Shown here in pieces: positions 4,362 to 20,636 of a stretch of 64,000 nucleotides of DNA. The DNA lies in contig CM068839.1 of the NCBI GenBank assembly GCA_028554795.2, positions 10,319,220-10,383,219 on the forward strand, written 5' to 3'. A program made the position numbers and the translations under genes. The number at the start of each line of letters is the position of its first letter. Positions within the stretch are counted from its first letter, which is position 1. This stretch comes from Sinohyriopsis cumingii. Taxonomy: Eukaryota; Mollusca; Bivalvia; Unionida; Unionidae. The notes below the pieces were generated by a model that saw nothing but the letters and a program-made list of their open reading frames with translations, made no database searches and had not been told where the DNA came from.

Positions 4362-4436
4362 TTATTAAGACAATTAGCTTGTCCATAGCAACAGCAACTG
4401 TCTTCCCCATTAAGAAGATGCCATGTACACGTTGTT

Positions 4437-5043
4437 CATAGCAGCAATCACTGCATACCCCATTTCAAAGATACCGGGTACAATTTGTCTATTGCAGCAA
4501 TCATCACTGGATACCCCATTTCAAAGATATCTGGTACAATTTGTATATTGCAGCAATCACTGAATACCCCCATTTCAAAGTTACCGGGCACAATTCGTCT
4601 ATTGCAGCAATCACTGAATACCCCATTTCAAAGATACCGGGAACAATTTGTGTATTGCAGCAATCACTGAATACCCCATTTCAAAGATACCGGGTACAAT
4701 TTGTCTATTGCAGCAATTACTGAATACCCCATTTCAAAGTTACCGGGCACAATTTGTCTATTGCAGCAATTACTGAATACCTCATTTCAAATATACCAGA
4801 TACAATTTGTCTATTGCAGTAATCACTGAATACCTCATTTCAAAGATACCGGGTACAAGTTGTCTGTTGCAGCAATCAGTGAATACCTCATTTCAAAGAT
4901 ACCGGGTACAATTTGTCTATTGCAGCAATCACTGAATACTCCATTTCAAAGATACCGGGTACAATTTGTCTATTGCAGCAATCAGTGAATACCCCTTTTC
5001 AAAGTTACCGGACACAATTTGTCTACTGCAGCAATCACTGAAT
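4437..5043. repeat. 53-bp minisatellite, target of the Polinton
   Basis: About eleven head-to-tail copies of a 53-bp unit containing CACTGAATACCCCATTTCAA, AGATACCGGGTACAATTTG and TCTATTGCAGCAAT. The array stops abruptly at 5043, where the Polinton begins, and resumes for part of a unit at 19110 with CTGAATACTCATTTCAAAG. The element therefore inserted into a repeat unit. Open frames over the array only reflect the repeat. Confidence 0.9.
5038..5043. repeat. Left copy of 6-bp target-site duplication
   Basis: CTGAAT immediately before the left inverted repeat. The identical hexamer follows the right inverted repeat at 19110-19115. Six-base duplications are the family hallmark of Polinton/Maverick integration. 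Confidence 0.9.
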
Positions 5044-5440
5044 AGTAGTATAGTGGGCCACCTTAGCCTCAAGGGGAATTAGCATTAAAAACCACCCTGG
5101 GCCTGTTTAGCCTCTATGTAAATTTAACATTAACCACCCTGGGCCTGTTTAGTTTCTATGTAAATTTAACATGGGCAAAAACCCCTGGGCCTGTTTAGCC
5201 TCAAGGGAATTTAACATGGGAAAAAAAAATCTTGGGCCTATTTAGCCTCAAGGGGAAATGGAACAGGGTCGGGACCCTATTTTAATAGTGTCCCGACCTG
5301 ATGGGTCTATGGAAATGGAACATGGGAAAATTGAAATAGGGAGGGTCTCTATTTTTTTTATTTAAAAAAAATGGGGTAGGCAATGAAAGTCAAGATCTTT
5401 TCGAGACCTATGAATAGCCCTGAAAAGGGCCTTTGGGTTT
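5044..5440 (+). repeat. Left terminal inverted repeat
   Basis: Matches the reverse complement of 18742-19109 over nearly its whole length. Internally it is built from roughly 45-bp subrepeats centred on CTGGGCCTGTTTAGCCTC; the left end has one more subrepeat than the right. Its inner edge contains an A/T-rich tract, then the block GGCAATGAAAGTCAAGATCT, a purine/pyrimidine stretch and the histone-type stem-loop at 5416-5431. Confidence 0.92.
5416..5431 (-). terminator. Histone-mRNA-type 3' stem-loop, left end
   Basis: On the minus strand the sequence is CCCAAA followed by GGCCCTTTTCAGGGCT: a 6-bp stem (one G-U pair at the base) around the loop TTTC, the shape and core sequence of animal histone mRNA ends (GGYYCT-UYUN-ARRRCC). 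It lies about 20 nt after the stop of the left-end minus-strand gene and is followed by a conserved CTCGAAAAGATC block where a histone downstream element would sit. Use of this signal by the element is inference. Confidence 0.75.
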
Positions 5441-5449
5441 CTTCTTCTT

Positions 5450-6130
5450 CTAACTCCTCCACTTCTTTAACCATCTTCTCACTTTTGCCACTATTCCTGT
5501 CTTCGTCTTCTCCTTTTCTGGCATCCAGTCAGGATGGCCTAGAGCTCTGAACTTTTCCTGAACTTTTATCCAATTCTGATTGAGCCTCTCAAACTCTTCC
5601 TTTATCTTTAAATTTTCCTTATCCTTTTCTTTCTTTACTCCATTTCTTCTTTATCTTCTTTACTTCTTCCACCATCACTTTTCTGATTAGTTATTCAGCT
5701 TTCTTCAGCTTTTCCAGACCCCTTTTGACAAAGGGCCAATCTGACCATTTCACCATTCCTTCCAAAAAACACCTTACTTCTACAACATTATCCAAGGCCT
5801 CTTTTAACATTCCAATTTTGACATAGGAAGGATTAATAAACCCTCTCAACTTCTTCACTTCTTCTTCTATTAACTCCTCTATCTTCTCCCTGCTACTTTT
5901 AGTTTGTTAGCAAAGTCCAGACTGTTTCTTATCCTCCATTCTCTTTCAATTCTTTCCACTACATATTCACTGTATATCATCCAATAGTATGTTTCCTTTA
6001 AGTTGTTGAACAGATCATGGATCGTTGCCCCTTGGGAATGGTGAAGGCTTCGGTATCAGTCTGTGTCTGACCCTATGCAAATTCACGTAGGCTTCGTTTA
6101 GCTTAGCTAGTCTGGAGTACATCTTCATAG
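5450..6130 (-). pseudogene. Left-end gene of the element, charged coiled-coil type, broken
   Basis: Part of the Polinton fossil. The minus strand shows coding character in several stretches rich in Lys, Glu and Trp, consistent with a mostly helical protein of about 200 residues. I do not recognise a family. The upstream end could lie near an ATG at about 6128. The last codons precede the stem-loop in the inverted repeat by about 20 nt. A 35-bp patch of capsid-gene sequence is embedded at 6013-6047. Confidence 0.45.
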
Positions 6131-6338
6131 GAGGATGAGTCGACAATGGATGGTTAGACTGGAGACTGCCCCGGTTTTAAAGTCAAAGCGCGGACGTGAA
6201 GGAAAACATCCCTACACGGTTTTCGAGCCACAACGTTCAATGAGTGTCATGAGAGGGATAGTAAGAAGTCAAAGAGCATGAATCAAGATTCCTATAGCAA
6301 AACAAAAGACAAAGGCATTTTTTCTTCAAAACAACATT

Positions 6339-6344
6339 TTTATT
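6339..6344 (-). terminator. Poly(A) signal AATAAA for the protease/capsid side
   Basis: AATAAA on the minus strand about 65 nt after the protease frame ends. It separates the virion-gene cluster from the left-end gene, which instead ends at the stem-loop. Confidence 0.55.
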
Positions 6345-6406
6345 CAAAATCACTTAACATTAACAAACAACTATATCATTTTTAACAATAATCAAACAAT
6401 ATAACA

Positions 6407-6925
6407 TCAAACATTTTTTTTCTTCAAATTACAAACATTTTTTTCAACTAACACATTATTTTGGACAGGGCTGACAACGTTGTGAAAAAAATTGTGATTT
6501 CCACTGTTGGAAGTCATTAGGCCATTGATGGACACTACGTTTCCTAGCTTGAAACAAAAGGAATAGCCCAGGCTGCGATGATGCAGAAAATGCACACAAT
6601 ATTGTCCACACACCGAGGAATCTGTGCCTTGTAATTTCACATTATTGAATCGGGTGGTCTGAGCATTTCTTCTCATAAAGTCAATGATATCGTCTTCCAA
6701 AGGGGGCAATCCATGCGAATCGAAATATTCCACACATCCTTCTTGAGGAAAGTAGACGGCTACCCAGTGGGTTCCTGGGAGATGACTGTCGCCCGTGTTG
6801 ATCACATAAGCTTGATGGTCTTGAGGTTTGCGATGAGGGAGTTCATCTTTAGCATAGACGACAGGATTCCAAGAAGCCGTGTACGAGCTGTGGTTCAAAA
6901 GGTAATAAAGTTCCCAGGTATCCAT
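6407..6925 (-). CDS. Adenain-like cysteine protease (Polinton PRO)
   Basis: Element part. A 172-residue frame resembling the adenovirus maturation protease family (C5), which cleaves capsid precursor proteins. The catalytic arrangement is visible: His53 in GTHWVAVYF, Asp69 in EYFDSHG, Gln99 in the position of the oxyanion glutamine and Cys106 in SSVCGQYCVHFLHHR. The N-terminal half aligns with the usual WELYYLLNH-type start. The tail beyond residue 125 is low in complexity and rich in Asn and Val, unlike the family. It lies at the downstream end of the leftward virion cluster and is followed by a poly(A) signal. Confidence 0.88.
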   Translation of the reverse strand: MDTWELYYLLNHSSYTASWNPVVYAKDELPHRKPQDHQAYVINTGDSHLPGTHWVAVYFPQEGCVEYFDSHGLPPLEDDIIDFMRRNAQTTRFNNVKLQGTDSSVCGQYCVHFLHHRSLGYSFCFKLGNVVSINGLMTSNSGNHNFFHNVVSPVQNNVLVEKNVCNLKKKNV

Positions 6926-7420
6926 GTTTTTTCTTCTTCACAGGTAATGATAAGTGATCAATTCGATCCTGATTTTCTCTTGGAAAATGTCTGACAAGTA
7001 AAAGGCGTTTAGCTCTGACTTCGGACCCTGGTTCACGAGAGTTTCGATGCGACAGATCTCGAGAGGCGTTAATGGAGGACAAGAATGTTCACGCAAGCCT
7101 TTATACCACTGATGAAACACGACTTCTTTCGAGATGAGACCCCAAGCTTCGTCCAGATACTCGTCCACTTTTTCTTCTTGACTCAGCATCAGACATTTAT
7201 CGTGTTAAATTTGACTGGGATGATCGTTTTGACATCCATAACACTCTTCTTTGATTAATTCTTTCATTTTTTCTACCAGGACTGTAGCAAAACAGGAGAC
7301 TAAATGGGCTTCTTGTTCTGGCCATCTTGACTTCATCATGATAACTTCTTCTTCCACAGTCTCCTCACATTCCATGTCTAAAGTTTCTCCACTAGGTAAA
7401 GAGGGATAACAGTCTTCCAT
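6849..7420 (-). pseudogene. Small conserved Polinton protein(s) with C-x2-C...HPSQ motif
   Basis: Element part between protease and capsid. One 71-residue frame ends with EECYGCQNDHPSQ, a cysteine-histidine motif I associate with a small protein found in other Polinton/adintovirus genomes at this position. The neighbouring frame (SQEEKVDEYLDEAWGLI...) is acidic and helical. The region is not one open frame as it stands. Function is unknown; a zinc-binding structural or regulatory role is a guess. Confidence 0.5.
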
Positions 7421-7425
7421 GGTTT

Positions 7426-8748
7426 CTAATAATCTAGAATGACTTCTCTCAAACTGTTGATTTCTATTGTATTGTCAGATTCTGCATACAGGATGACGTG
7501 CACCGTTTGATCAGGGACTCGGTTTGCAAACTGAATTTCCACACGAATCTGACCGGATTTTATAGGGTGGAAATGTCCCTCGTCGCTGCCTTGGTCTGGA
7601 GTGAAATCTAAAGCCCACAAAGCATAGCCTCCTGCATAATCTTCGTATGTAATGCCATTACTGGTGTTGGTTCCTAACTGTCCGGTTTCTTCGTACAGGG
7701 AAAAGTACGACCTCAAGAAATTCTTCTTGTCAAAGTTATGTTCGAAGGGTCGGGTACACAAGGTCTTGCCATCGCGACTGACTTCGATCTTGGACACGCC
7801 AAAGTGTTGAAAGTAGAAAGGATTTTTATCGGCAGCTCCATTGAAGGCTGCATTCTCGACGACACCAAGGATTAAACGTTTGGGTAGCTGTCCTTGGAAC
7901 AGATGATCTTCGATCATGGATCGTTGCCCCTTGGGAATGGTGAAGGTTTTCACTTCCACGCGTCGTATCGGATACTTAGCGGTCGTTCTGCTCAACGTGT
8001 GACTGATGTCGTTTCCCATTTTAGGTAACACTTCCACGCGTCGTACGTAGAGCCTGGCTTCCTCGGTGACAGTTTTGCAAGTGGCAGCAGCAGAATTAGC
8101 CATCAAATGGAAAGCGGTACTGCTGCGATTGAGTCTCAGGCGGACATTTACACCGTTCAGCAAATACTTTTCTTGCAACCACATGTCCAAATGCAAGCGA
8201 TCCATCAGTTCTAAACTTTTGTTGGCTCCTATGATTTTGTTTCTTCGTTATACAAATCCCTCATTGTGTTCTTTCTTTGTATCAATTTCCAATTCTTCAA
8301 ATAGGCCCGCATCGTCAGCTTCCCATACCACACAGGCATTGAGATGAGTGTTCTTGGCGTCTATTCCATACGTCAAGAGACTTTCCAGGTACGCTCGATA
8401 AGGGTAAGTATCCATGCTGCTACTGACTAGTTTGTTATTCAAGTACAAGTCCATTCCACTAAACAAGGAATGCATGAAATTGTTGACGGGAGCTATTACC
8501 TCATCACCTTCTAGGCTCGAATTGTCATCATCTACAACTTTGACTTTCAGGTACAAGTAACTGCTATTCAGATCGATATAATCTTCGGGCTGTCCTTTGA
8601 TTTCAAACTCGATGGGGGCTGAGGCTGTCAAAGAGGAGACGGGATGAAATTCCACCCACTGGGATTCTTGCATGGTCATCATGGTGGGGGGCATGGCAAA
8701 CAGATCCAGTTCCGACTTGGAACAAGCGCAAGACTCTCGGTGTATCAT
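7426..8748 (-). pseudogene. Major capsid protein region (double jelly-roll, F54H12.2-like)
   Basis: Element part. The N-terminal portion has the hallmark of this family: SQWVEFHPVSSL, then a block ending in DLNSSYLYLKVKV, NNFMHSLFSGMDLYLNNK and YPYRAYLESLLTYG. The C-terminal portion ends with VHVILYAESDNTIEIN and REVILDY, as in annotated 'F54H12.2-like' proteins, which structural studies of the family identify as hexon-like double-jelly-roll capsid proteins. Total span is about 440 codons, a normal size. The region is broken. It sits between the protease side and the core protein, the usual Polinton order. Confidence 0.88.
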
Positions 8749-8769
8749 TTTTTTCTCTTTCTCAATACC

Positions 8770-9114
8770 TTAATAATCGAAAACGTCTAAGTCTCGAACG
8801 GTTCTTCTTTTCTTTGTCTTTCTAGTTTTAGACGTGTAAAGTTTGGTGAAAGGGTATTTTCTTCGTCGTCTCTTTCTACCTTGTCCTTGCTGTGGCTTCA
8901 GGGAAGTAGGAATGCCTGACTCGGTAGCGTGCAGGGCATTTATAGGTGTTTCTCGTCGGCCCAAAAGGTCTTTACCTGTTTGCAGCAAGACATTTTTGCC
9001 TGCCCTCAAGAAGTCTTCATTGGTGCTTTGTTTGTCGATGATGACATTTTGGAGAAATTCTTTGCCTTGCATCAGTGCGACATCTTTTAAGGCGTGCAAT
9101 CCGCGTGTCACCAT
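8770..9114 (-). CDS. Basic core protein (adenovirus pVII/pX-like)
   Basis: Element part. A 114-residue protein with an acidic-neutral N-terminal half (KDVALMQGKEFLQNV, AGKNVLLQTGKDLLGRRE) and a strongly basic C-terminal half (QGRKRRRRKYPF, TRKTKKRRTVRDLDVFDY). Small Arg/Lys-rich proteins immediately upstream of the capsid gene are typical of adintoviruses and likely bind packaged DNA. The frame is open throughout. Confidence 0.65.
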   Translation of the reverse strand: MVTRGLHALKDVALMQGKEFLQNVIIDKQSTNEDFLRAGKNVLLQTGKDLLGRRETPINALHATESGIPTSLKPQQGQGRKRRRRKYPFTKLYTSKTRKTKKRRTVRDLDVFDY

Positions 9115-9216
9115 CAGCTACAACACCGGATCCACCGAACGAAAGGCTGATTTTAACAAATCTCCTAAGCCGTGTCCTCGCTGTCGAGAAACCCCTCGGT
9201 ACACTGGATACATGAC

Positions 9217-10155
9217 TTACGAGTCGTGAGAGAACCGTTTTCGAAAATGGAGTTTCACCGTGACTTTTCCTTTGGTGAATGGAATATTTTGTCCCAGGTC
9301 TCCTTTTATAGCAATGTTCACCGTGTTCAAATAAGACTTGCTGACAGGCAAATAGTGAGGATGTACAAATTCGCGGTGAACGTGGTAAGTGTTTCCACCT
9401 TCCTCGTCAGCGTTCGTGGCAGAATCCACTTTGACAGGAATGACACGCAGTAACGGTACGAAGGTGTGTCCCACCACGTTGTACTCCACCACATCGGAGT
9501 ACACAAAGATCAAATTCAGTCCTTGGTTCAGTTCTACCGGGCCACGAAAAAACTTGGCAAAAGAATCGTTGTCGGAAATGACTGGTAATTCGTTTTCCTT
9601 GAGCATAGTCATCCTCATGTCCATGTCCCCGCCCAACATGTCAAACAATTCAGTACAAAATAAGATAGACATAATTTTACTCCCCTCAGGAAATTTCATC
9701 AGGAAGCGACGAGCTACTTTATGGTAGTCCAGGGTGACACTTTTTTTGACACTCTCCAAAGCTTTAAGAAACACGACATTAAACCTGGAGGCTATGGTGC
9801 TGACTAAATGTTGACCACTAAAATAATAGCCTGGGGGAATGAACAAGTGATAGGTGGTCCACTTTTGACGTTTTGTCCCAGGGGTTTTCTTGTCATATTT
9901 GACATGGGTCTCCAAGCACTGTTACAATTGTTCGTCATGAACTTCTACCGTAAAAGAATTTTGATTGGGAAGGACATTGAGGACTTGGGTCGGGTGAATG
10001 ATTTCCACTAAAGCCACTTCCCAATGGGCTTCGTGATCTAATTGGATGGCCTGAGGTAATTTGGCCATGTAACAGCACAACGTGTTGTTGGGAAACACCT
10101 CCATAGAACTGTCACTGGGTAAGGTTAAGTAAAATTGGTTGTTAGTGTGACTCAT
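9217..10155 (-). pseudogene. Minor capsid (penton-like) protein region
   Basis: Element part. The upstream piece starts MSHTNNQFYLTLPSDSSM followed by FPNNTLCCYMAKLPQAIQL and HWEVALVEIIHP, the conserved opening of Polinton minor capsid proteins (single jelly-roll, forming the vertex). The downstream piece continues with YHLFIPPGYYFSGQHLV and ends with a beta-rich domain containing LRVIPVKV and HREFVHPHYLPVSK. Combined size is normal for the family. The region is broken. Confidence 0.75.
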
Positions 10156-10577
10156 AATTCCAGAGTTCTGTGGCTGTCCGAGGTGTTACTGGACGTCAGA
10201 GGCGTGTCTCCGCCGAAAATAGGGTTGTTGTTGTTGTTGCTATTGGAGAGGTGACTGACACTGGCACTGGACACAAGGTTCCTGTTGTTCCCGTTGGAAG
10301 AGAATTTCAGGGAGGGATTGGGAAGCAGGTAACCGATGAAACTGCTCAATAAAATGGTCCACAATTGTTTGTCTCCTTGTTGCAAACTCAAATTGGCAAT
10401 GGCTGCACCGATGACACAATACACTACAAAGATTTGGCAGAAAAAGACGATTTGCATTTTAGGCACACGTTCTCCACACCACACCCACAAGGGTTGTTTT
10501 TGTAAATCTTGCAGAGAAAAACTGGGTGAAGGAGTTGTCGACGTAGCTGCTTCTGTGTGAAAGGGCATGATGGTCAC
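10152..10577 (-). CDS. Two-pass membrane protein of Polinton type
   Basis: Element part, 141 residues. Two hydrophobic segments (about residues 43-62 and 72-88) flank a short polar loop (LSLQQGDKQLW). The block ERVPKMQIVFFCQIF and the segment SSFIGYLLPNPSLKF match a small protein repeatedly seen in invertebrate adintovirus genomes. The C-terminal third is Asn/Ser-rich and looks disordered. A TATA-like CTATAAAAA lies only about 4-12 nt upstream of the start. Its end abuts the start of the minor capsid region. Function unknown; a membrane role in virion assembly is plausible. Confidence 0.65.
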   Translation of the reverse strand: MTIMPFHTEAATSTTPSPSFSLQDLQKQPLWVWCGERVPKMQIVFFCQIFVVYCVIGAAIANLSLQQGDKQLWTILLSSFIGYLLPNPSLKFSSNGNNRNLVSSASVSHLSNSNNNNNPIFGGDTPLTSSNTSDSHRTLEL

Positions 10578-10719
10578 TTCTTTTTATAGTGAACCATCGT
10601 AAGACTTCTTTGAAACTGGCTTCTAAGACACGAGCCCGTATTTGTGGATTTTTTTCTCGACTGATGCCATACAAGGTACGAATCAATTTGACGGGAAGAT
10701 GCGACTGAAGGGACGTCAT
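10459..10719 (-). CDS. Small basic protein overlapping the membrane-protein gene
   Basis: Element part. Starting at the ATG at 10719, the frame gives about 86 residues opening MTSLQSHLPVKLIRTLYGIS and continuing with ARVLEASFKEVLRWFTIKR. The longer upstream extension overlaps the ATPase end and a TATA motif at 10756-10767, so this ATG is preferred. The last third overlaps the next gene in another frame and may be non-functional. I do not know the family. Confidence 0.45.
   Translation of the reverse strand: MTSLQSHLPVKLIRTLYGISREKNPQIRARVLEASFKEVLRWFTIKRSDHHALSHRSSYVDNSFTQFFSARFTKTTLVGVVWRTCA
10581..10589 (-). promoter_or_regulatory. TATA-like motif before membrane-protein gene
   Basis: CTATAAAAA on the minus strand, almost touching the start at 10577. 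The same nonamer precedes the genes starting at 10719 and 12315. At this distance the transcript would have almost no leader. Confidence 0.5.
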
Positions 10720-10755
10720 GTTCAAAATGTGTGAGACAGACGAAAAGTGTCCGAG

Positions 10756-10767
10756 GTTTTTATAGAT
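10756..10767 (-). promoter_or_regulatory. TATA-like motif before small basic gene
   Basis: ATCTATAAAAAC on the minus strand, 37-48 nt upstream of the start at 10719, inside the end of the ATPase gene. Confidence 0.55.
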
Positions 10768-10780
10768 TTTTTTGTAGGGG

Positions 10781-11509
10781 TTAAGTCGAGGACGGAGACG
10801 TGTACAGGACAGGCCCTCCGTCTTGGCACCAGTGGTGAAACAATTGGGTACGAAATCGTAAATCATCGGGGGTCGTAGGTTTCAAATCGACGAGTAAATA
10901 GGCATGTGGAGTTTGAGTGGCATCGTCGTACGCCTGAGTCAGCCAAGGCGTTCCTAACTGTTTGGCTAAGACTTGCACTTGCGATTTATCTCGAGGGCTT
11001 TTAAATAAGACTACGTAATGCGCATTGAGACTGATGGTGCGATGGGCTTTACTTTGTTGAAACAAATTTTGAGTGATGTAAACGACACTGGCATTACGAT
11101 GATGCCCTTTGCGTGTAAACCACAGTTTAATTTCTTCTTCGTTTTCTCCTAACATGTCGTCGAAAATGACCAAATGGGTTTGACGGGAGTCAGAGACGAT
11201 GCCATCGTCTTCTTTAGGAATGCCTTCCACAAGCACGATGGAATCGCCTTGACTTTCTCGCAAGAGGCTGTACGCCGAATGCCACTCTTTGTAACACCAC
11301 ACGAAGCGTTGAGGTGGTCGATCGATCAAATGAAGTTTATGTTCAATCAAACATTTGACAAATTCGGTTTTGCCTGAACCGCTAGGTCCAGCAATGAGCA
11401 TGTTAAAGGGATGGCGAAGATACAAAGCCTCCCAACTGACACAATCTAAGTGTTCGTCGATGACTTTGACAGTAGAGGAAGAGGGAGCAGAGACATCAGA
11501 GGTAGGCAT
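10781..11509 (-). CDS. DNA-packaging ATPase (FtsK/HerA, A32-like)
   Basis: Element part, 242 residues, open throughout. Walker A GPSGSGKT is at residues 41-48, Walker B LVIFDD at 113-118, and the YITQNLF segment near 144-150 is the sensor region. This family powers genome packaging in Polintons, adintoviruses and many nucleocytoplasmic large DNA viruses. Size and motif spacing are normal. A TATA box at 11554-11564 lies about 45-55 nt upstream, so it may have its own promoter. Confidence 0.9.
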   Translation of the reverse strand: MPTSDVSAPSSSTVKVIDEHLDCVSWEALYLRHPFNMLIAGPSGSGKTEFVKCLIEHKLHLIDRPPQRFVWCYKEWHSAYSLLRESQGDSIVLVEGIPKEDDGIVSDSRQTHLVIFDDMLGENEEEIKLWFTRKGHHRNASVVYITQNLFQQSKAHRTISLNAHYVVLFKSPRDKSQVQVLAKQLGTPWLTQAYDDATQTPHAYLLVDLKPTTPDDLRFRTQLFHHWCQDGGPVLYTSPSST

Positions 11510-11553
11510 AGTGTCAGGAATGTCACTTGTGACACGAAAACAAACAAGACAAG

Positions 11554-11564
11554 AGTTTATATAC
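11554..11564 (-). promoter_or_regulatory. TATA box of the ATPase gene
   Basis: GTATATAAACT on the minus strand, about 45-55 nt before the ATPase start. It lies only about 15 nt from the poly(A) signal of the upstream gene (11580-11585), showing how tightly the units are packed. Confidence 0.6.
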
Positions 11565-11579
11565 TTTTTTCAGGACACG

Positions 11580-11585
11580 TTTATT
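11580..11585 (-). terminator. Poly(A) signal AATAAA of the accessory unit
   Basis: AATAAA on the minus strand directly after the end of the accessory frames (11593) and just before the ATPase TATA box. Confidence 0.55.
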
Positions 11586-11592
11586 GAATGTT

Positions 11593-12315
11593 TTAAGCAT
11601 GAACACGAAAGACAAAAATACATAAAAGCCAAAGGCTTAAGTACAAGGATAAAAGGCACATGAAAACCATCAACGTGGAATAGGAACAAGTTTCTGCACA
11701 ACATGTTTTGGGTAATGTTCTGACCAGTTCTATAGGGGGTAAGGTTACACAAGTGTCCTCACGAAAGGGTCTTTCAGGCCTGTCCACGACAGTCCTGTCG
11801 TATGTGACGGGTTCTTCTTCTGGTACTGTCATCAACACTGGTTGAAAAGTAACTTTTTTCCTTGAACAACTCTCGTGCATACTGGGCCACTTCTTGGCTC
11901 CAAGCCTCAAATCCCCCTTTTTTCCAGGCATGGACATCTGTCCAATGGGGGTGTAAGTCACAAGCTACACACACATCGTCATACACGTCTTCGGTAGCTA
12001 AAAGTTGACGAATCTTTTTTTCCTGTAGAGGTCGAGAAGTTTCCAGATGAAAACGCAAGGCTTTGAGCAAAAGGAGTCTTTCGTGACCATTTAAGGCCAT
12101 TTGGGTGGTAAGTACTGTTCGTAAAGAGTCCACAAGGAATCGACTGGTAAACGAAATCCCAGAAAACAAGTCACTAAGACACACACCACTTGTCGACCCA
12201 AATTGAACGGAAACAGTTCTTGTAATAATTGATGGTAATGATCCACAGATTCAATATGGTCATTGAGTTCCTTCCACGGAATCTGTTCAATCACATGTGA
12301 TAAAAGTCGTGGCAT
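11593..12315 (-). pseudogene. Accessory region of the element, unknown protein(s)
   Basis: Element part. Several overlapping minus-strand frames with coding character. One starts at 12315 just below a CTATAAAAA motif; another contains a CVACDLHPHWTDVHAWKKGG segment with paired Cys/His residues and acidic helical flanks; the last ends in a hydrophobic stretch (LMVFMCLLSLYLSLWLLCIFVF) that may be a membrane anchor. I do not recognise any of these. The region does not form one open frame and is probably broken. Confidence 0.4.
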
Positions 12316-12778
12316 GGATTCCTGTTTTTATAGTCTCTTTGTTTCGGAAGCAATACACGTACTTTCTACCCAGAGATCCTCGTTCTCCAGTTGGAAATTT
12401 AAATGCTCCAAACTGTAACCTAAACTTCAGAGTTCGTTTAGAAGTTTCCTCTTCCTCTAAGTAGATTCCACGTAATATATGTTGGTAATCCTTTAACTCG
12501 TCTTCCTCAATGCGTTGCACTAGGTGAATCTCGAAGTAACCAAAATGATGAACATTTCGATCATTCACTAACTCAAAGTGTTGAACAAGGTCTGACTACT
12601 GAAACAATTTCTGACGAATCAGTTCTCTTATACCATTCAGGTACCAGTGGTTAAACATCTGGTGACTTAACGGATGCAATTGTTCTTTACGTTTCACTTG
12701 TATTTTGACCAGCTCTCGGTAAATGCGTTCTCTCAACTCCACAGGCAAAGCACGAATGTTCTCTTGTAAAGTATCCAT
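12287..12778 (-). pseudogene. F-box-like accessory paralog A, broken
   Basis: Element part. The N-terminal stretch is nearly identical to paralog B (MDTLQENIRALPVELRERIY) and the C-terminal stretch carries the related EEDELKDYQHIL block. It is a tandem copy of the next gene, and no longer a single open frame. Confidence 0.6.
12324..12335 (-). promoter_or_regulatory. TATA-like motif before accessory gene
   Basis: GACTATAAAAAC on the minus strand, 9-20 nt before the start at 12315. It is one of three near-identical CTATAAAAA motifs in the element. Confidence 0.5.
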
Positions 12779-12790
12779 GAATAGGTCATA

Positions 12791-13243
12791 CTAAATCCTT
12801 TTTCTGACACAAGAAATGTACCGTTTGCACAGACATGGTTTTAATTCATTGTCGAATCTAAATCGTTTAATCACAAATTTACACATTACAATTCGTTCAG
12901 AAGTTTCCTCTTTCACTAAGTTGACATTGTATAAAAGATGTTGGTAATTCGTTAACTCTTCCTCTGGAATTCGATGCAGTAACTTTACAATGTAGTACAT
13001 AGAATCATCAATAGCAAACCAATCCTTTTTTAAACCAGGGGGTCGTTGATCAATGTCTGTCCAATGGAACACTTTCAATTGAATCAGTCCTTGTATAGCA
13101 TTCAGGTACCAGTGGTTCAAACACCGGTGACGTAACGGATGCAATTGTTCTTTACGTTTCACTTGTGTTTTGACCAGCTCTCGGTAAATGCGTTCTCTCA
13201 ACTCCACAGGCAAAGCACGAATGTTCTCTTGTAAAGTATCCAT
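12791..13243 (-). CDS. F-box-like accessory protein, paralog B
   Basis: Element part, 150 residues and open. Residues 9-25 (RALPVELRERIYRELVK) have the LPxELxxxIY pattern that opens F-box and related helical adaptor domains, which recruit targets to SCF ubiquitin ligases in eukaryotes and several viruses. The rest is a charged helical region with a DYQHLL/NYQHLL-type block and a Cys/Arg-rich tail (LCKRYISCVRKR). The match is short, so F-box function is an inference. Neighbours A and C are paralogs. Confidence 0.5.
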   Translation of the reverse strand: MDTLQENIRALPVELRERIYRELVKTQVKRKEQLHPLRHRCLNHWYLNAIQGLIQLKVFHWTDIDQRPPGLKKDWFAIDDSMYYIVKLLHRIPEEELTNYQHLLYNVNLVKEETSERIVMCKFVIKRFRFDNELKPCLCKRYISCVRKRI

Positions 13244-13264
13244 GAATAGATCAGTCAGTACAAT

Positions 13265-13654
13265 TCACAATCTTCTCCTAGGGCAAAAGTAATCCACATA
13301 GTGAGTAATTTCTGACCACTGCCATTCAGGGTAACGTCCAAGAATGTCACTGAACTCTTTTGATGTAAACGGTCTAGAGTAATACAATAGGACGAATGCA
13401 CACTTGACCCAAAGAAATCTAACACACTGGTTGACTTTTTTCACTTTCCTCTTGTGAATTTCTCGACACAAAAGTTCTACAGTTACCCATTTAGATTTCA
13501 CTCTGGCAAGTCCCTGCCAAACTTCCTTGTAAATCTTCTCTTGAAGTTCTTTAGGTAATGATTCAATATCTTTTTTGAAATGGAGTTTGAATACTGGTCT
13601 CGATGATGTCCAACATTTGACTCCTAACCAGGCTGGTTTCTTCTTCAACGACAT
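13265..13654 (-). CDS. F-box-like accessory protein, divergent paralog C
   Basis: Element part, 129 residues and open. Residues around 32-45 (ESLPKELQEKIYKEVW) repeat the LPxELxxxIYxE motif of paralogs A and B; the remainder has diverged, except for short Trp/Tyr-rich segments near the end. Its position next to A and B points to repeated gene duplication within this accessory block. Confidence 0.45.
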   Translation of the reverse strand: MSLKKKPAWLGVKCWTSSRPVFKLHFKKDIESLPKELQEKIYKEVWQGLARVKSKWVTVELLCREIHKRKVKKVNQCVRFLWVKCAFVLLYYSRPFTSKEFSDILGRYPEWQWSEITHYVDYFCPRRRL

Positions 13655-13665
13655 GGTAAGTTACT

Positions 13666-14301
13666 TCAATGTCTCGGTCCCACTAAGGGTAAGTAATGAC
13701 AATTTGGTGACCATCGAGCATGTTCTAGGTAGGCCGAATCTTGTGGTTCCCAGTGGTGAAGTGACACACCGCAACTGAAGCACCTCACTTTATCCCCGTC
13801 GCCCAAGTAGAAAAATCCGGCTCTGGCTAATTCTTCGGGAGTTGGTCCTCCCAGATACTTAGGCCATTTTCCTTTGAACGATTGAAGACGATTTTCAAAG
13901 TCGCAGTATTCCGACAAACGCACAGGAAACGAATATTCGTCTTTCACAGGTTCGTTACGATGAGGGTTGGGTGACATGGACAGGAGTTTGCTCAGGGCTG
14001 GATGACATACGTAGGGAGGTAGACGTGAAGGTGGACATCCACATTTAAAACGAAACCCAGTAAAGTGTCCAAGAGGACAAGCGGCATCGCTTTCGCATCC
14101 CTCAGGTTTGACACGCACAGCATCACTTTCCATGATAGGGGTAGTGAGAACAAAGTTCCCATGATGCTTTACGGCATCGCTAAGGTCACAACGTACAGCA
14201 TCGTTCCCATCGCAAGGCTCACAATCGCATTCCACTTCAGAGTCCCCAAACTTGAATTGTACCTGTCTGAACTTGTTTTGTGTTTCTCTGAAAGTATTCA
14301 T
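13666..14301 (-). CDS. BIR-domain protein (inhibitor-of-apoptosis-like)
   Basis: Element part, 211 residues and open. Residues 138-203 form one BIR zinc domain: RLQSFKGKWP opening, GFFYLGDGDKVRCFSCG, and the exact zinc ligand spacing C174-x2-C177-x16-H194-x6-C201 with the HHWEP and HARWSPNC blocks. BIR proteins bind caspases or IAP antagonists; baculoviruses and other large DNA viruses carry captured copies that delay host-cell death. The N-terminal 110 residues are Cys-rich with short SDAV repeats and are unfamiliar. There is no RING domain, so it would not act as a ubiquitin ligase by itself. A TATA-like TATTTAAAAAGG lies about 50-65 nt upstream (14353-14366). Confidence 0.85.
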   Translation of the reverse strand: MNTFRETQNKFRQVQFKFGDSEVECDCEPCDGNDAVRCDLSDAVKHHGNFVLTTPIMESDAVRVKPEGCESDAACPLGHFTGFRFKCGCPPSRLPPYVCHPALSKLLSMSPNPHRNEPVKDEYSFPVRLSEYCDFENRLQSFKGKWPKYLGGPTPEELARAGFFYLGDGDKVRCFSCGVSLHHWEPQDSAYLEHARWSPNCHYLPLVGPRH

Positions 14302-14333
14302 CTTGTTCGCTTGGTCTTGGTAGTCACAATGAA

Positions 14334-16829
14334 CTATCGATCTTGCCTAGGGTTCCTTTTTAAATACAGACCAATAACGACGTGTCCATACGGTAAGGTG
14401 AAATGATTGGGAAGTCGGAATCGCTTCTGGTACACGATTTGATAGACTTTTTCCAAGGGTCGACTGACGATGTGGTGAGTGGGTAAACGTACAATCTTGT
14501 TGGGCTGATAGGTGGTCACTTTAAAGTGTTCATCTTCTCTAGACTGCAAGGCTTCTTTCAATACGTCAAAGTTGACCACTCGACTGGTACGATAATTCAG
14601 AGTCAGTCCTTTCACTTTACACTTCGTGTGCACTTCTCCTTGTTTGTCCCGGTATTCGTAGCCGTAATTTTTAGGACCGCCACTTGCGAAACTTAGAATC
14701 TTGTCGTCGGGGTGCTCGTCTGTCCAGGCTCCTAAACGGTCTCCTTCGATGTCAGGTTGCTGTTGACTCGGGTGATGGATGTAAATGCAACTGTCCGTGT
14801 CAAAGTACAGTACGCGTTCCCCTAACAGTTCTAAAGCTTCGTACAATTTTAAGCGAGCATAAGCTTAAGCCGCAATGATGACATTTCCAAAGGGGTCGGC
14901 TTCTACAAAGTCCAGATCTTCTTCGTAATTCAGTAAGATCAAATCTTCGCGAACGACGTCCACGTGTTTCATGAATTTAGTTTTGTCATGAATCATCTGG
15001 AAGTAGCGGGAAGGTTCTGTCAAATATTCCTTTTTGGATAAACACGGTCGTTGTGCTATTTTTCTCCACAAGCAATTTAACATCACTTTGGCAAACGATC
15101 GCCTGCCTTCGTTTTTCTCGATGTGATCTAAAGTGATGCCTTCTTGTGTCCAGTATTTCTCTTTGACTTGTATTTGGTCTTCGGGAGTGTGACACCAGGA
15201 CGGATAACCACTGGCTTCTTGCTGCAGTTTCAAAAAGGCATCCACGTAGTCTGCGAAAATGCCTTTCTGACTGAGGTCTCCCTTGTGATATTGTTGTGTC
15301 TTGGGAAAGTGGCAAATTTCGTACACTTATAACAGTTGGTATCCCATGTCCAGAGCTTTGAACAATTGTACGCTGACCCAGGTTCCCGTCAAGGCCCTTT
15401 CTTCCTGGGTGTGCTGACAAGGCTGATCTTGGTTGCACGTTTTGGCACAAATGAAACATCAGTTTGCCTTGACAATGGTGAGGTAAGACGGGATGGTATA
15501 GGTTCATGGGAGGCAAAACTTTGCACTTGATCAAGCCTTCATATTGTCGAATGTTGACCAGGTCGATCTGTTCCGTCAGCAATTGTGGGTGCCCTGCAGG
15601 AAAGTGACAATATTTGCACACGTAGGGATACAGCGAACACACGTCCAAGTATTTCATTTCTTCTCCTTTCTCTTCGTCGGCTTGGTACAGCAAACAGGTG
15701 GCATTGGTCCTTCCTCCGTACAAACTATCGCTTGGGTTCAGGGGGTCCATGAACTGGTAACTTTCCACGATGCGTTTGAACTCGGGATCGGTTTTCAAAC
15801 GGTGATCGTACTCGTGTTCCCACATTTTCACTACTTGATATCCTTCCTGTTCTAACTTTAGGCGTCGCTGACAAGTGTCCTGGTACAAGTCTTCCATGGT
15901 TTGTTGTAAAAACTGATTTTTAGTGCCACGGTCAGGGTAACAGACGGGACATCCGTGAAATAAGCAACCGTTAAACTCGTACACGATCTTGGGGTTTTCT
16001 AAGTCCCAGCCATCGACCGAATACGTTCCGATGGTCTTTTCGCCCCCTCCGTTGCGGGCATGCTGAATCCATTTGTCTTCCTTGTCGCACAAGTAATGTA
16101 ACCAGCGTAGGGCTTTGACCGAGTATTGACGTTTGACATAGTTGGTCGTTTGAGGACTGATGACAGCCACGGTCTTTTCAGGCATGAATCGTTGCCGGTA
16201 CACTAAGGAACACGCTTTGGCAATGGTGCAAGCTTCTTTCAAAGGATTGACCCATCCATGTTCCATGAACAGTTCTCGAAATTTTCCACAGCATCGCCGT
16301 AAAATGTCCACATCGGAACGACAATACTTTAGCATTTCTTCCTGAAAGTCGAAAGGGTCGGAGGCATGAACCTGGTACCAAGCGTAGAAAGCCTCTCGTT
16401 GTTCGGTACGCATGTTGTCGGGGTCGTAATAGTGAGCCTGTTGTATGGAAAGTCTCAAGCGATCGTCTTCTTTGGGTTGACATTGTCGCTTGAGTGTGGT
16501 GAGCAAAGACTCCCACATCTCAGTGATGAACCCTTCTCTAACGGTACGTCGGACTTGAAATCTTTAAACTTCACCGTGTATTTGTAAGCCGTGGTTCTAA
16601 ATTTTCTAGAGGGACGCTTTTCCGTCTCTTGAATGGAATAGTATTTTTCAGGGTTGACTAAGGGTGGTGAACTTTGTTTACAGGGTTTGGATTCTGGTTC
16701 ACTCATGTCCTCTTCAAAATCACTGGCATGAATCTGTGCCAAGACTTCAGCCCTGGTACGAGGCGATAGATCACATTTCTGCCTCTTACTTTCTTCTTCT
16801 TTCTTCTTGAATGAGTTGGATCGTTTCAT
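14334..16829 (-). pseudogene. Protein-primed family B DNA polymerase region, broken
   Basis: Element part. The minus strand carries the ordered landmarks of Polinton/adintovirus PolB: an exonuclease III-type YCRSDVDIL segment, the YEFNGCLFHGCPVCY block, palm motif A (LDVCSLYPYVCKY), motif B (KVMLNCLWRKIAQR) and motif C (YFDTDS), followed by the thumb-side KVKGLTLNYRTSR segment. Protein-primed polymerases copy the linear genome from terminal proteins bound to the inverted repeats. The charged N-terminal frame starts at 16829, downstream of a TATA box near 16877-16884. The gene lies in several open pieces and is broken. Confidence 0.88.
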
Positions 16830-16962
16830 CTTGATAGCAAAAAGTCAAATGACTAAAGTTTGAACGGCATGGGTTACTTTATAGTCATGGCAGACCAGCG
16901 TATATAAAGGGTATGTGTCTTGTCCTTTCACTATTCATTTCACTCTCAAACCGAGCACAACG
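16830..16962. promoter_or_regulatory. Divergent TATA-TATA promoter between PolB and CCHC genes
   Basis: Two TATA boxes about 20 bp apart face away from each other: CTATAAAG on the minus strand (16877-16884) and TATATAAAGG on the plus strand (16901-16910). A T/C-rich TTTCACTATTCATTTCACTC stretch about 25-35 bp after the plus-strand box could hold the start site, which makes the ATG at 16963, not the one at 16915, the likely first codon of the CCHC gene. Confidence 0.65.
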
Positions 16963-17259
16963 ATGGAAGAGACTACACAGATCGAACGTTTCATCAGAGC
17001 TTTGCGAAGAGTCATTAGAAAATTCTCTTCAGACCAGTCGAGGGACTACTCTCTTTCCTTTGGAGATAAAAGTCAAGATACTTGCTATATCTGTCAGAAG
17101 AAAGGGCATTGGTCTTCAGAGTGTCCAGGTCGTCAAAAAAGCAAAACAGGGGTTAAAAGAGACAAAAGCCAAGATACCTGTTATTATTGTCAAGAAAAAG
17201 GACATTGGTCTCCAGATTGCCCTAAGAAACAAGAGGTGTCAGAAGAAGAGAGGGATTCT

Positions 17260-17291
<32 letters not shown>

Positions 17292-17469
17292 GGAAGAAAG
17301 CAGACAGGTGAAGAAAAAGAAACAGGAGAAGAAAAGAAGAAGGGAAGAAAGTGAGGAGGAAGAGGAGGAAAAGACTGTGACGGTGAAGAAATTAAAAAAA
17401 ACAGAGAGAGTGAACAATGAGACAGGAGAAGTCTATGAACTTTTTAAAGTGTTATGTTGTGAATTGTGA
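16963..17469 (+). CDS. Double CCHC zinc-knuckle protein with acidic and basic tail
   Basis: Element part, about 168 residues from the preferred start. After a basic N-terminus (RFIRALRRVIRKF) come two CCHC knuckles, CYICQKKGHWSSEC and CYYCQEKGHWSPDC (C-x2-C-x4-H-x4-C), in a near-repeat of about 32 residues with a shared KSQDTC lead-in. The tail is a run of acidic residues, then Lys/Arg-rich segments. Such knuckles bind single-stranded nucleic acid in retroviral Gag and cellular CNBP-type proteins. It is one of the few rightward genes in the element and ends at a normal AATAAA. Role unknown: RNA binding or genome packaging are possibilities. Confidence 0.75.
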
Positions 17470-17494
17470 ATTGGATTGTAAATATTTATAAAAG

Positions 17495-17500
17495 AATAAA
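17495..17500 (+). terminator. Poly(A) signal AATAAA of the CCHC gene
   Basis: Located 26 nt after the stop, followed by a GT-rich stretch at about 17513-17527. This gene therefore uses ordinary polyadenylation, unlike the three units that end in stem-loops. Confidence 0.6.
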
Positions 17501-17656
17501 TTAGATATAAAGGTAAGTGTCTTTGGGTTTTGATTTTAAAATAAGAAGCTATACTCACGCACTCATACACAGACATGTACTATAGGGGTAAAATGTTTTT
17601 TTTTTTTTTTGAGTTATTGGCAATTGAAAGTCTATCTCTTTTCGAGAGACATGGGT

Positions 17657-17672
17657 AGCCCTGAGAAGGGCC
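17657..17672 (-). terminator. Histone-type 3' stem-loop, internal copy
   Basis: On the minus strand GGCCCTTCTCAGGGCT: the same 6-bp stem as the end copies, with loop TCTC, still within the UYUN loop consensus. It lies about 20 nt after the end of the minus-strand gene at 17692 and is followed by TACCCATG and CTCTCGAAAAGAG. Similarity to the inverted repeats extends some 70 nt (through GACTTTCAATTGCC), so the cassette was copied into or out of the element's ends. Confidence 0.72.
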
Positions 17673-17691
17673 TTTGGGGGTAGGGGTGAGT

Positions 17692-18266
17692 TTAAGCAAT
17701 CAACTTTAACTGTTTTAAACCTTTGCCACGGCCAAGGCCTACTTCTGGACTGCGTAATGTTGATGATGATAATGATGATGATTTGGTTGAAATCACTAAG
17801 GGTGGTACGCATGGCTTAGTCACAGAGTTGGAGTGTTTAGCTGGGGAAGGTGGAATTCTCTTCGGTCGTAATAAAGAAGTCTGATACATTTGTTTCAGAC
17901 TTGTTAACTCTGCTAAAATGTCTAACAGTACCGTGACCGTTTGACTTTCACACCCTTGTTTCTTTGCTGCTGCTTCTTCTTCTTCTTTTTTTTTTTTACC
18001 TGTTCTTCTTGCTGCTGTTGCTGTAGGAGAAAAGCTTGTTCCGCTTCCTTTTGTCGTTGTATAAATTTCTCCAATTCTTCTTTCTGTCTCTGTCTAAAAT
18101 TCTCCAATTGCGGTAATGAAGGTGACGAAGGTTCCGGAACAAATTCTTGCGAGGTAAGAAAATCCACAAAATCCCAATTTACCTCTTCTGAAAGTAAGTC
18201 CGGGTTCCCTTGGGCGGTCTCCACTGCTGGTGCACCCCAATGGATCGTTTTCTGAGTTTCCGTCAT
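17692..18266 (-). pseudogene. Coiled-coil Gln/Lys-rich gene of the element
   Basis: Element part. The N-terminal frame (114 residues) opens MTETQKTIHWGAPAVE, has an acidic Trp-containing segment, then a coiled coil (LENFRQRQKEELEKFIQRQ) ending in poly-Gln and poly-Lys. The downstream frame is Ser/Pro-rich with a basic end and stops about 20 nt before the internal stem-loop. The two parts are not in one open frame today. I do not recognise a family; the layout (own TATA, own stem-loop terminator) suggests an independent transcription unit. Confidence 0.45.
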
Positions 18267-18486
18267 GTTGAATCACTGTCGCATAGATTGACTACATACA
18301 GGCGCTAGAGAATCTATATAGACCACGTGACGTCACAGACTACTCTCTTCGGATTGGACGTGGGCTGACTGAATTTTGTAACGCGTGTTTGGATTGGTCA
18401 ATGAACTCAATCCGTTTCGATCCTTCCTCTCCCTATAAATAAGCGCAGTTCACTGCATTCCTTCACCTGTTCTCGGCACCCCAAAC
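18267..18486. promoter_or_regulatory. Divergent promoter with E-box/CRE at the right end
   Basis: A minus-strand TATA (18313-18321, TATATAGATT) serves the coiled-coil gene and a plus-strand TATAAATA (18434-18441) serves the right-end gene. Next to the first lies CACGTGACGTCA (18324-18335), an E-box overlapping a perfect palindromic CRE (TGACGTCA), the site bound by ATF/CREB-type factors. The arrangement resembles early promoters of DNA viruses; the role is inferred. Confidence 0.6.
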
Positions 18487-18720
18487 ATGTGGACCGACGT
18501 GCAATCATCAACTCTTGTATCTTCCATGATGTTCCGGACGGACATACCGATGTATGTCCGATCCAAGTAGACAGTTGCCCACAGGACAGACACCAGCCTG
18601 TGGATCAGAAGAATATATGTGGAGAGGCAAGGATGCCTAAAAAGGGTTCTCATTTACGGTCCTGCAGTCAGGCGCAACTTCAGGACAAGAAGAAGACCAA
18701 TGCGGTGCCCTCTGTGTTAA
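18487..18720 (+). pseudogene. Small Arg-rich right-end gene, broken
   Basis: Element part. Starting about 46 nt after a TATAAATA box, the plus strand shows a short coding region ending with an arginine-rich segment (AVRRNFRTRRRPMRC). Its end lies 28 nt before the stem-loop at 18749, a spacing like that of histone mRNAs. A second overlapping frame runs on through the stem-loop and is less likely. No family recognised; a small DNA-binding protein is a guess. Confidence 0.4.
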
Positions 18721-18741
18721 CAATAGGGTATGTTAATATAA

Positions 18742-19109
18742 ACCCAAAGGCCCTTTTCAGGGCCATCCATGTCTCTCGAAAAGATCATGACTTTCATTGC
18801 CTACCCCAATTTTTTTTTTTTTTTTTGTTTTTTTAAAAAAAAAGTAGAGACCCTCCCTGTTTCAATTTTCCCATGTTCCATTTCCAAAGACCCATCAGGT
18901 CGGGACCATATTAAAATAGGGTCTCGACCCTGTTCCATTTCCCCTTGAGGCTAAACAGGCCCAAGAATTTTTACCCATGTTAAATTCCCTTGAGGCTAAA
19001 GAGGCCCAGGGGTTTTTGCCCATTTTTAAATTTACATAGAGGCTAAACAGGCCCAGGGTGGCTTTTAATGCTAATTCCCCTTGAGGCTAAGGTGGCCCAC
19101 TATACTACT
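18742..19109 (-). repeat. Right terminal inverted repeat
   Basis: Reverse-complement partner of 5044-5440, ending CTATACTACT. It contains a poly-T run near 18806-18835 and the GGCCTGTTTAGCC-type subrepeats, one unit fewer than the left end. Confidence 0.92.
18749..18764 (+). terminator. Histone-type 3' stem-loop, right end
   Basis: AACCCAAA followed by GGCCCTTTTCAGGGCC and ATCCA: a perfect 6-bp stem with loop TTTC and the flanking AAA and CCA bases of the animal histone consensus. A CTCTCGAAAAGATCATGAC block follows, in the place of the histone downstream element. It is in the right inverted repeat, so the left end carries the mirror copy. Confidence 0.82.
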
Positions 19110-19115
19110 CTGAAT
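19110..19115. repeat. Right copy of 6-bp target-site duplication
   Basis: CTGAAT, identical to 5038-5043, after which the interrupted 53-bp minisatellite continues (ACTCATTTCAAAGATACC). Confidence 0.9.
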
Positions 19116-19150
19116 ACTCATTTCAAAGATACCTGGTACAGCTTTTCGAT

Positions 19151-20057
19151 AGCAAAGCCACTCTCTACCCATCTGAATAGTAAGCGTGAGATAAGTTGTG
19201 AACTATGGGAGAAGGCATTCATTTTTATATTATACTGGTAACTGATGGTTTTTACAATATTTCTGTACGAACATTAATTTTATGAGATACGAACAAGTCA
19301 ATAATTTCACGAATTTAAGTTTATTTATCAAAATGGCGATTTAAATGAATGTCTTTAACAAGTACAACAATCATATCCTTAGTAGAATATATATCAATTT
19401 TCATATAGAATGAATGACAACATACGTCAACTGTACAAGACAATATTAATAAACTTCATTTTACGACTTAAAATTTAAACATGAGGTACAAATCATAAGC
19501 TACTAAAATATAAATAGTTTTCATAAAATCCTAAAATCCACCATAACATATATACACTGTGCTAGAAAATATTAATTTCATGAATTGTTATCACAAATTT
19601 AATTAACACACACCTCACCAATCTGGTAAATATATATAATAAGGATACAAATGAAAACTGATATAGAAATATTGATATCCTCAAACAAAACCCACAGAAA
19701 GAACCGTAAGAGATCGTTCCCATCATTACAATAGGTTTGACATTTATACATAGAAAAGCTCAACAGACTCGCTGCTCAAGAAAGTCACTTATAAAATTAA
19801 AACCTGATCTACTTTGGAATGCAGCACTCTTGGGAACGGAAAGGATACTGGTGTGAGGGGGTGGGGTGAGGGGATGGGGTGGGGTGTCTCACTTTCAGGA
19901 ACAGTGAAAAGTGAGATATAAGTCAAAATAATTCTGAAAAATCTAAAGATGTTCAAAATTTGAATTACTAATTGTTTCAAAAACCAAAGAGTATGCAATT
20001 AACGTTGTAAAGAGAGTATATGATGGGTATAAGAACTATAATTTAATCCTTCTGTTT
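19151..20057. other. Non-coding AT-rich DNA
   Basis: Nothing recognisable apart from a G/T-rich patch near 19855-19885. No exon-like stretch seen. Confidence 0.5.
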
Positions 20058-20636
20058 TGAGGTACCAAAGAACATAAGTATATATACATCGCTAGAGGTA
20101 CTAAAGGACACTAGCACATTTGCTTCGCTAGAGGTACTAATGTACATAGTACATTTGCATCGCTAGAGGTACTAATGTACATAGTACATTTGCATCGCTA
20201 GAGGTACTAATGTACATAGTACATTTGCATCGCTAGAGGTACTCAAGTACACTAATACAGTTACATCACAAGAGGCCCTAATGTACACTGGCATATTTAC
20301 ATCGCTAGAGGTACTAATGTACATAGTACATTTGTATTGCTAGAGGTACTCAAATACACTAGTATATTTGCGTCGCTAGATGTACTAATGTGCACCAGCC
20401 TATATGCATCGCTAGAGGTACTAAATTACACTAGCACATTTGCATTGCTGGAGGTACTAATGTGCACTAGCACATCTGTATCGCTACAGGTACTAACGTA
20501 CACTAGTACATTTGCATCACTAGATGTACTAATGTGCACCAGTCTGTATGCATCGCTAGAGGTATTAAAGTACACTAGCACATTTGCATCCCTAGAGGTA
20601 CTAACGTACACTAGCACATCTTCATCGCTAGACGTT
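20058..20636. repeat. 35-bp minisatellite
   Basis: About sixteen copies of a 35-bp unit (CGCTAGAGGTACTAATGTAC followed by ATAGTACATTTGCAT). Part of each unit, GTACATAGTAC or GTACACTAGTAC, is an imperfect palindrome. Open frames on both strands arise because 35-bp units shift frame regularly and contain few stops. Confidence 0.92.

Follow-up and report, generated by a model that had tools for sequence, protein, structure and literature searches.

Replication-dependent histone mRNAs are formed by a dedicated pathway, in which SLBP binds a stem-loop, the U7 small nuclear ribonucleoprotein (snRNP) pairs with a purine element, and CPSF73 cuts; the product is an mRNA without a poly(A) tail, stable and translated during S phase. 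To our knowledge, such 3' ends are generally treated as a private signal of replication-dependent histone genes, and we know of no mobile element or virus in which genes other than histones are described as using SLBP/U7 3' ends. Here we analyzed a 64,000-nucleotide stretch of the genome of the bivalve Sinohyriopsis cumingii (contig CM068839.1, positions 10,319,220 to 10,383,219; hereafter the window), which holds what is, by its sequence, a Polinton-type element (a virus-like DNA transposon). At least five genes of this element, which we call L, g4, g5, g3, and R, very probably carry the 3' end of the host's replication-dependent histone genes, as judged from their stem-loops and downstream regions.

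Three described systems are closest to this locus. Histone mRNAs of the bivalve Lucina pectinata are reported to have a palindrome near the stop codon and, in some cases, purine-rich elements (PMC6210712); these are ordinary host histones, unlike the mobile element studied here. The element resembles the SLBP/U7 snRNP system captured by RF00032, the Rfam model of the histone 3' untranslated region stem-loop, in its stem, its loop, its AA(A/C) lead, and its ACCCA-like context, as well as in a purine core 13–14 nt downstream and a short distance from the stop codon, but its stem-loops stand on genes without a histone match, in a mobile virus-like element. With Polintons/Mavericks and adintoviruses, it shares a family B polymerase, an A32-type ATPase, a probable adenovirus-type protease, and terminal inverted repeats. 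It differs from them in having accessory genes with histone-type ends, and no integrase was recognized in the 20 window frames scanned (the window copy is internally deleted, and its siblings were covered in part). A survey of the open-licence literature, judged mainly by titles and abstract openings, yielded no description of histone-type 3' ends in Polintons, adintoviruses, or other viruses.

The stem-loops of the window and their purine cores are located as follows.

5416..5431, minus strand: histone-type stem-loop of the left-end gene L, with a 6-bp stem, a UUUC loop, and a G-U closing pair
5396..5402, minus strand: purine core GAAAAGA, candidate histone downstream element for U7, 13 nt after the left stem
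17657..17672, minus strand: histone-type stem-loop of gene g3, with a UCUC loop and a G-U closing pair
17637..17643, minus strand: purine core GAAAAGA, lying 13 nt downstream of the stem of g3
18749..18764, plus strand: histone-type stem-loop of the right-end gene R, above the RF00032 gathering score
18778..18784, plus strand: purine core GAAAAGA, 13 nt after the right stem

All three coordinates and strands agree with a sequence-only reading of this DNA, which had also claimed that each stem-loop follows a stop codon on the matching strand by 18–28 nt; we measured 18 nt for the left gene (stop ending at 5450, minus), 19 nt for g3 (stop ending at 17692, minus), and 28 nt for the right gene (stop at 18718–18720, plus). 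The g3 stop is genuine, as relatives of 193–199 residues (P0121–P0123) end at the corresponding residues. As a correction to that reading, the second arm of the stem, given as AGGGC[C/T], reads GGGCT in the left and g3 copies, which gives a G-U closing pair.

The left, g3, and right stem-loops scored 30.1 bits (span 5391–5436, minus), 31.9 bits (17632–17677, minus), and 34.6 bits (18744–18789, plus) with RF00032, with E-values of 6e-7 to 3e-5; only the right site exceeded the gathering score of 34. In a covariance model built solely from five host histone 3' ends (hereafter the host-histone model), the same sites scored 42.0, 35.9, and 45.0 bits and took ranks 1–3 in the 64 kb, the next match having 17.9 bits and an E-value of 0.24. 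The pattern GGCYCTNNNCAGRGCY, with up to two mismatches, matched the window eight times against 1.69 expected, and none of 100 shuffles reached eight; the three sites account for six of these matches because they can be read on both strands. A chance match was rejected on these shuffle statistics, on the ranking by the host-histone model, and on the genome-wide RF00032 matches described below.

We then compared the element with the histone 3' ends of the host itself. Host histone genes lie in units that repeat about every 8.3 kb (150 of 662 candidates scored), and two units were read, one from each of two places (L084 and L085). GG[CT]CCTTTT[TCA]AGG[GA]CC was present in all five histone genes, which scored 35.0–39.4 bits with RF00032, and a GAAAAG core followed the stem by 13 nt in H3, H4, and H2B and by 14 nt in H2A and H1 (H1 was identified from its position in the unit rather than from a match). 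Among element motifs with a G-type stem, the core stood at offset 13 in 67 of 69 (58 GAAAAG and 9 AAAAAG; two had none). The regular expression for this type excludes A-type stems and thus missed g4 and g5, which the host-histone model recovers; these two genes differ from host histones in mostly having an A-U closing pair, and GAAAAG was found 13 or 14 nt downstream at all eight g4/g5 sites checked. The stretch CTNGAAAAGA is common to the downstream regions of host histones and element. Smaller differences lie next to the stem: ACCCA follows it in 61 of the 69 element motifs, where the hosts have ACACA, ACAAA, ATACA, or ACTTT, and the letters before it are AAAG in L, R, and g3 but AACG in four of the five host histones (AAAG in H1). 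Host and element share the type of stem-loop, with the same core at the same distance.

The whole genome (2.9 Gb, 1138 contigs) was searched with RF00032. Scoring covered 75 of the 589,472 first-look candidates, and every one of the 75 exceeded the cut-off. This list is not exhaustive, because the host's own histones are missing from it. Among the matches listed, 69 scored 42.6–45.6 bits and six scored 34.5–36.5 bits; the motifs of the window score below those of its siblings. We read 50 of the 75 loci, namely the 30 best and 20 of the remaining 45, including the six weakest, so that 44 of the 69 high scorers were covered. Every one of the 50 carries the stem-loop and is a sibling element. At 48 loci, a match to L, R, or g3 lies within 600 nt upstream of the stem-loop on the same strand; in eight of these, the left-gene match covers only about the first third of the gene, ~420 nt off, because the left gene varies (they include L004, L008, L023, L025, L027, L044, and L048, the third motif of L019 aside). 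The other two loci, L009 and L028, were identified as siblings through their g4 frames. Host histone genes mistaken for element genes were rejected as a source of these matches: no motif in the 50 loci had a histone as its nearest upstream match, and the host histone cluster was found separately. In the siblings, the motif, a 6-bp stem with a 4-nt loop, follows a stop codon in sense orientation, mostly by 18–36 nt and mostly in a better form than in the window, with longer gaps in some decayed copies with broken frames; the motif was not absent or degenerate in siblings, nor at random positions and strands, the pattern that had been suggested as speaking against the idea. As a separate observation, one sibling (L016:1500–2800, minus) holds two right-end genes with stem-loops about 1.2 kb apart on one strand.

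The 50 loci were picked by RF00032; hence, gene ends were also sampled independently of their own motif, in elements that had themselves been found through a stem-loop at another gene. Of 30 loci of 3 kb, 15 had been selected by the right-end motif; 13 of these hold the 3' end of g3, and the block was present in all 13 (nine with the exact stem-loop and four with small changes, all 13 at an E-value of 3.1e-5 or better in the host-histone model). Another 12 of the 30 had been chosen by the left-end stem-loop (L009, L028, and ten in which the left gene was matched), and all 12 show a second match about 0.8–1.3 kb upstream, after g4, at an E-value of 1.6e-4 or better, although the g4 frame is broken near the gene end in L004, L009, and L022. 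Sixteen further stretches (L086–L101), chosen to cover the middle and left portions of eight elements, gave nine matches of 43.6–52.1 bits at eight distinct sites with the host-histone model. The stem-loop followed g5 in all five elements where that place was covered (the stretches of the other three end before it) and g4 in three of three further elements, for a g4 total of 15/15. L093 and L101, which belong to one element, showed no related gene apart from one weak ATPase match. The stem-loop ends of the three transcription units first proposed stand, but their extent is wider: five genes, L, g4, g5, g3, and R.

Two of the three window copies lie within the terminal inverted repeats of the element.

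5044..5440, no strand: left terminal inverted repeat, matching 18740–19109, with the left stem-loop block at its inner edge
18740..19109, no strand: right terminal inverted repeat, pairing with the left repeat

The repeats are 86% identical over 354 columns (5107–5440 against 19090–18740), with further arms out to 5044 and 19109, and the left (5416) and right (18749) copies form their innermost part; these two copies are therefore not mutually independent. Such a location is what would be expected if the hairpins were DNA-level parts of the terminal repeats, serving as replication, resolution, or packaging signals, with an incidental likeness to histones. However, the copies at g3, g4, and g5 are located outside the repeats, every copy with an identified gene is on the sense strand after that gene, and the match to host histones extends to the downstream core and its spacing, which would be immaterial to a DNA hairpin. 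We consider this explanation highly improbable.

Neighboring genes of the same element have another kind of 3' end. Two of them served as controls.

6407..6937, minus strand: adenovirus-type cysteine protease gene (probable), with AATAAA at 6344 (minus) and no stem-loop
16885..17469, plus strand: zinc-knuckle gene (zf-CCHC, E 1.4e-13), with AATAAA at 17495 (plus) and no stem-loop

None of 11 zinc-knuckle 3' ends has the stem-loop, and seven of the 11 have AATAAA at or before +28. The protease was matched in six of seven loci; in all six, A[AT]TAAA lies no more than 90 nt from where the match ends, and no stem-loop is close by, the nearest being about 680 nt on, after g5. Pooled, AATAAA or ATTAAA was found at 13 of these 17 ends. 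The ordinary poly(A) signals of the protease and zinc-knuckle genes indicate that the element has two transcript classes. Taken together, the likeness to both signals of the host and the presence at five genes beside AATAAA neighbors make the histone pathway the most economical account. The sequence-only reading had assigned AATAAA to other genes of the element, which holds for the zinc-knuckle and protease genes, but AATAAA also occurs at 5362 (minus), about 54 nt beyond the left stem-loop.

Pairing within the stem was analyzed in 26 chosen sequences (4 host, 22 element), which gave 22 distinct rows. Pairing was seen in 97.0% of cells, and the closing pair was GC in 11 rows, AU in eight, GU in two, and unpaired in one. 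Two-sided changes occurred in nine cells against 3.3 in shuffles, and none of 500 shuffles reached nine; two pairs show a two-sided change, a count that 48 of 500 shuffles also reach, and for further pair types 485 of 500 do so. The AU closing pair may have arisen once and been passed on to both g4 and g5. Because the rows were chosen by hand and host H2A was omitted, the pairing counts as supporting evidence only. In R (15 sequences), minority letters made up 12%, 5%, and 27% at codon positions 1, 2, and 3, indicating that R is coding.

Several observations weigh against a working histone pathway at these ends. No U7 small nuclear RNA gene was found in the host genome with RF00066, but the control was likewise silent, so absence is not implied. 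In silico folding of the window's g3 block can place the core in a second hairpin. The g3 stem-loop varies no less than its gene: in 14 sequences, including that of the window, it has 3.1% minority letters, compared with 4.7%, 3.2%, and 3.3% at the three codon positions (the third not raised) and 12.7% in the spacer, so g3 adds little independent evidence that the loop is under selection. AATAAA begins 8 nt before the stem position in seven of 24 g3 ends; A[AT]TAAA is found no more than 160 nt from the match end in 10 of these 24 and in 5 of 28 ends of the right gene, so some of them may be polyadenylated. Finally, L001 and L002, from a tubeworm symbiont assembly, and L003, from a mussel symbiont assembly, are related elements of other animals in which no match exceeds 16.4 bits, and thus the feature is not general to Polintons; they also lack clear relatives of the five genes (best E-value 0.017), although these elements may be incomplete.

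Two alternatives draw on these points. One is that the element took up 3' ends of host histone genes a single time, duplicated them internally, and now carries them as functionless relics, its genes using other poly(A) signals. The window blocks share about 60 nt at 83–88% identity (the 17657 copy is 88% identical to the right copy and 83% to the left), and are thus related by duplication; AATAAA lies near some ends, the window copy is decayed, and at the unselected g3 ends the loop is no better conserved than the coding part. Against decay stand the compensated closing pair, a core spacing kept across five genes and two stem sequences, and the contrast with flanking DNA: the stem-loop varies 1.3% in the right gene, against 14% in the spacer and 27% at third positions (most of these loci were selected by the motif), and 3.1% against 12.7% in g3. 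We regard relics as unlikely, if somewhat less so than DNA-level hairpins. The other alternative is a dual mode, with the stem-loop used in S phase and poly(A) signals otherwise, or with the loop acting in stability or export; it overlaps with the preferred explanation. The seven g3 ends with AATAAA at −8 are in its favor, as is the reported ability of human histone pre-mRNA to assemble either complex (PMC9756948). On the other side, 14 of the 24 g3 ends and 23 of the 28 ends of the right gene lack A[AT]TAAA over the same 160-nt range from the match end. A dual mode appears a minority possibility, though the most plausible of the three alternatives. At the seven g3 ends concerned (L010, L013, L017, L024, L026, L049, and L053), the two 3'-end pathways might cut at nearly one place, judging from the spacing of their signals.

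The remaining genes of the window are as follows.

5450..6055, minus strand: left-end coiled-coil gene L, frame broken in the window and open in some siblings
6042..6268, minus strand: g5 remnant (gene start only), 84–94% identical to the g5 frame of sibling L097 by tblastn
7426..8769, minus strand: two conserved core open frames without a Pfam match, 38–48% identical in L001 and L003
10781..11569, minus strand: packaging-type ATPase (A32-type; Pox_A32, E 7.2e-8, above the cut-off)
13666..14346, minus strand: BIR-domain protein (BIR, E 2.4e-23)
14334..16563, minus strand: family B DNA polymerase, its frame broken; the part at 14986–16563 matches DNA_pol_B_2 (E 7.3e-18)
17692..18272, minus strand: gene g3, in two frames in the window; intact relatives have 193–199 residues
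18439..18720, plus strand: right-end gene R, with an Arg/Cys-rich C-terminus and one in-frame stop in the window, open in siblings

The window copy is decayed, with broken polymerase, g3, L, and R frames; siblings have open frames. A tblastn search of the window found neither the rest of g5 with its stem-loop nor any g4 match, which points to an internal deletion. The protease is probably of the adenovirus type (Peptidase_C5, E 7.6e-4; 19.7 bits, slightly under the cut-off of 21.3), and the frames at 7426..8769 are, by their position, probably the capsid protein. The ATPase has 481 relatives at an E-value of 0.001 or better. Relatives of L (P0125–P0129) share a similar C-terminus. Searches of Pfam, PHROGs, and PDB sequences with the proteins of the five stem-loop-bearing genes gave nothing convincing as to function; the Pfam matches of g4 were weak and to charged low-complexity regions. 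In the viral_contigs collection, the exact stem-loop patterns had no matches and no relatives of the polymerase, ATPase, or left gene were confirmed, and in the phage collection the polymerase had a single weak partial match.

Several further features were noted in and around the element. Its cargo includes the BIR-domain (inhibitor of apoptosis) gene at 13666–14346. A 209-nt direct repeat (12580–12788 and 13045–13253, about 90% identical) lies in adjoining open frames and is perhaps a gene duplication. The zinc-knuckle 3' flank (17496–17560, plus) contains a GTAAGTGTCTTTG[GA]GTTTTG stretch, kept in several siblings, that suggests a splice donor site or a GU-rich downstream polyadenylation element. 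In L087, L097, L099, and L100, the protease match breaks off after residue 127 and resumes about 88 nt later, as if across a small intron, and one g3 relative (P0124) has its second half swapped for a different tail, perhaps through splicing. Outside the element, a 53-bp tandem repeat array (4379–5097) lies directly beyond the left terminal repeat, a short stretch related to it beyond the right one (19110–19140), a 36-bp tandem array just past the element (20004–20647), and a tRNA-like match at the Rfam threshold (29.2 bits) at 25885–25957 (plus). L003 has a weak twister-P1 ribozyme match at 15841–15905 (plus; 28.9 bits against a gathering score of 67.2).

If the five ends work as histone ends do, the SLBP/U7 machinery of the host would make poly(A)-free, S-phase mRNAs from L, g4, g5, g3, and R: with SLBP on the stem-loop and U7 snRNP paired to the purine core, CPSF73 would cut after ACCCA to leave a tailless mRNA, stable and translated in S phase. 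The likely benefit, we infer, is that accessory genes would be expressed during S phase, in cells that are dividing or belong to the early embryo or germline, in which the integrated DNA element would itself replicate. The pattern of ends makes it likely that the lineage of this element placed its accessory genes under the host's histone 3'-end pathway as a built-in S-phase switch, with their mRNAs produced and translated only during host DNA replication, while its core genes are polyadenylated. If so, this would be the first known mobile element or virus to use SLBP/U7 3' ends on non-histone genes, and a mobile element with at least five such genes would show that the histone 3' signal can be taken over. 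Its transcripts would escape poly(A)-selected RNA sequencing, and they would be natural non-histone substrates for studies of SLBP/U7 specificity. These ends suggest a route by which an integrated virus-like element may track the S phase of its host without a sensor protein of its own.

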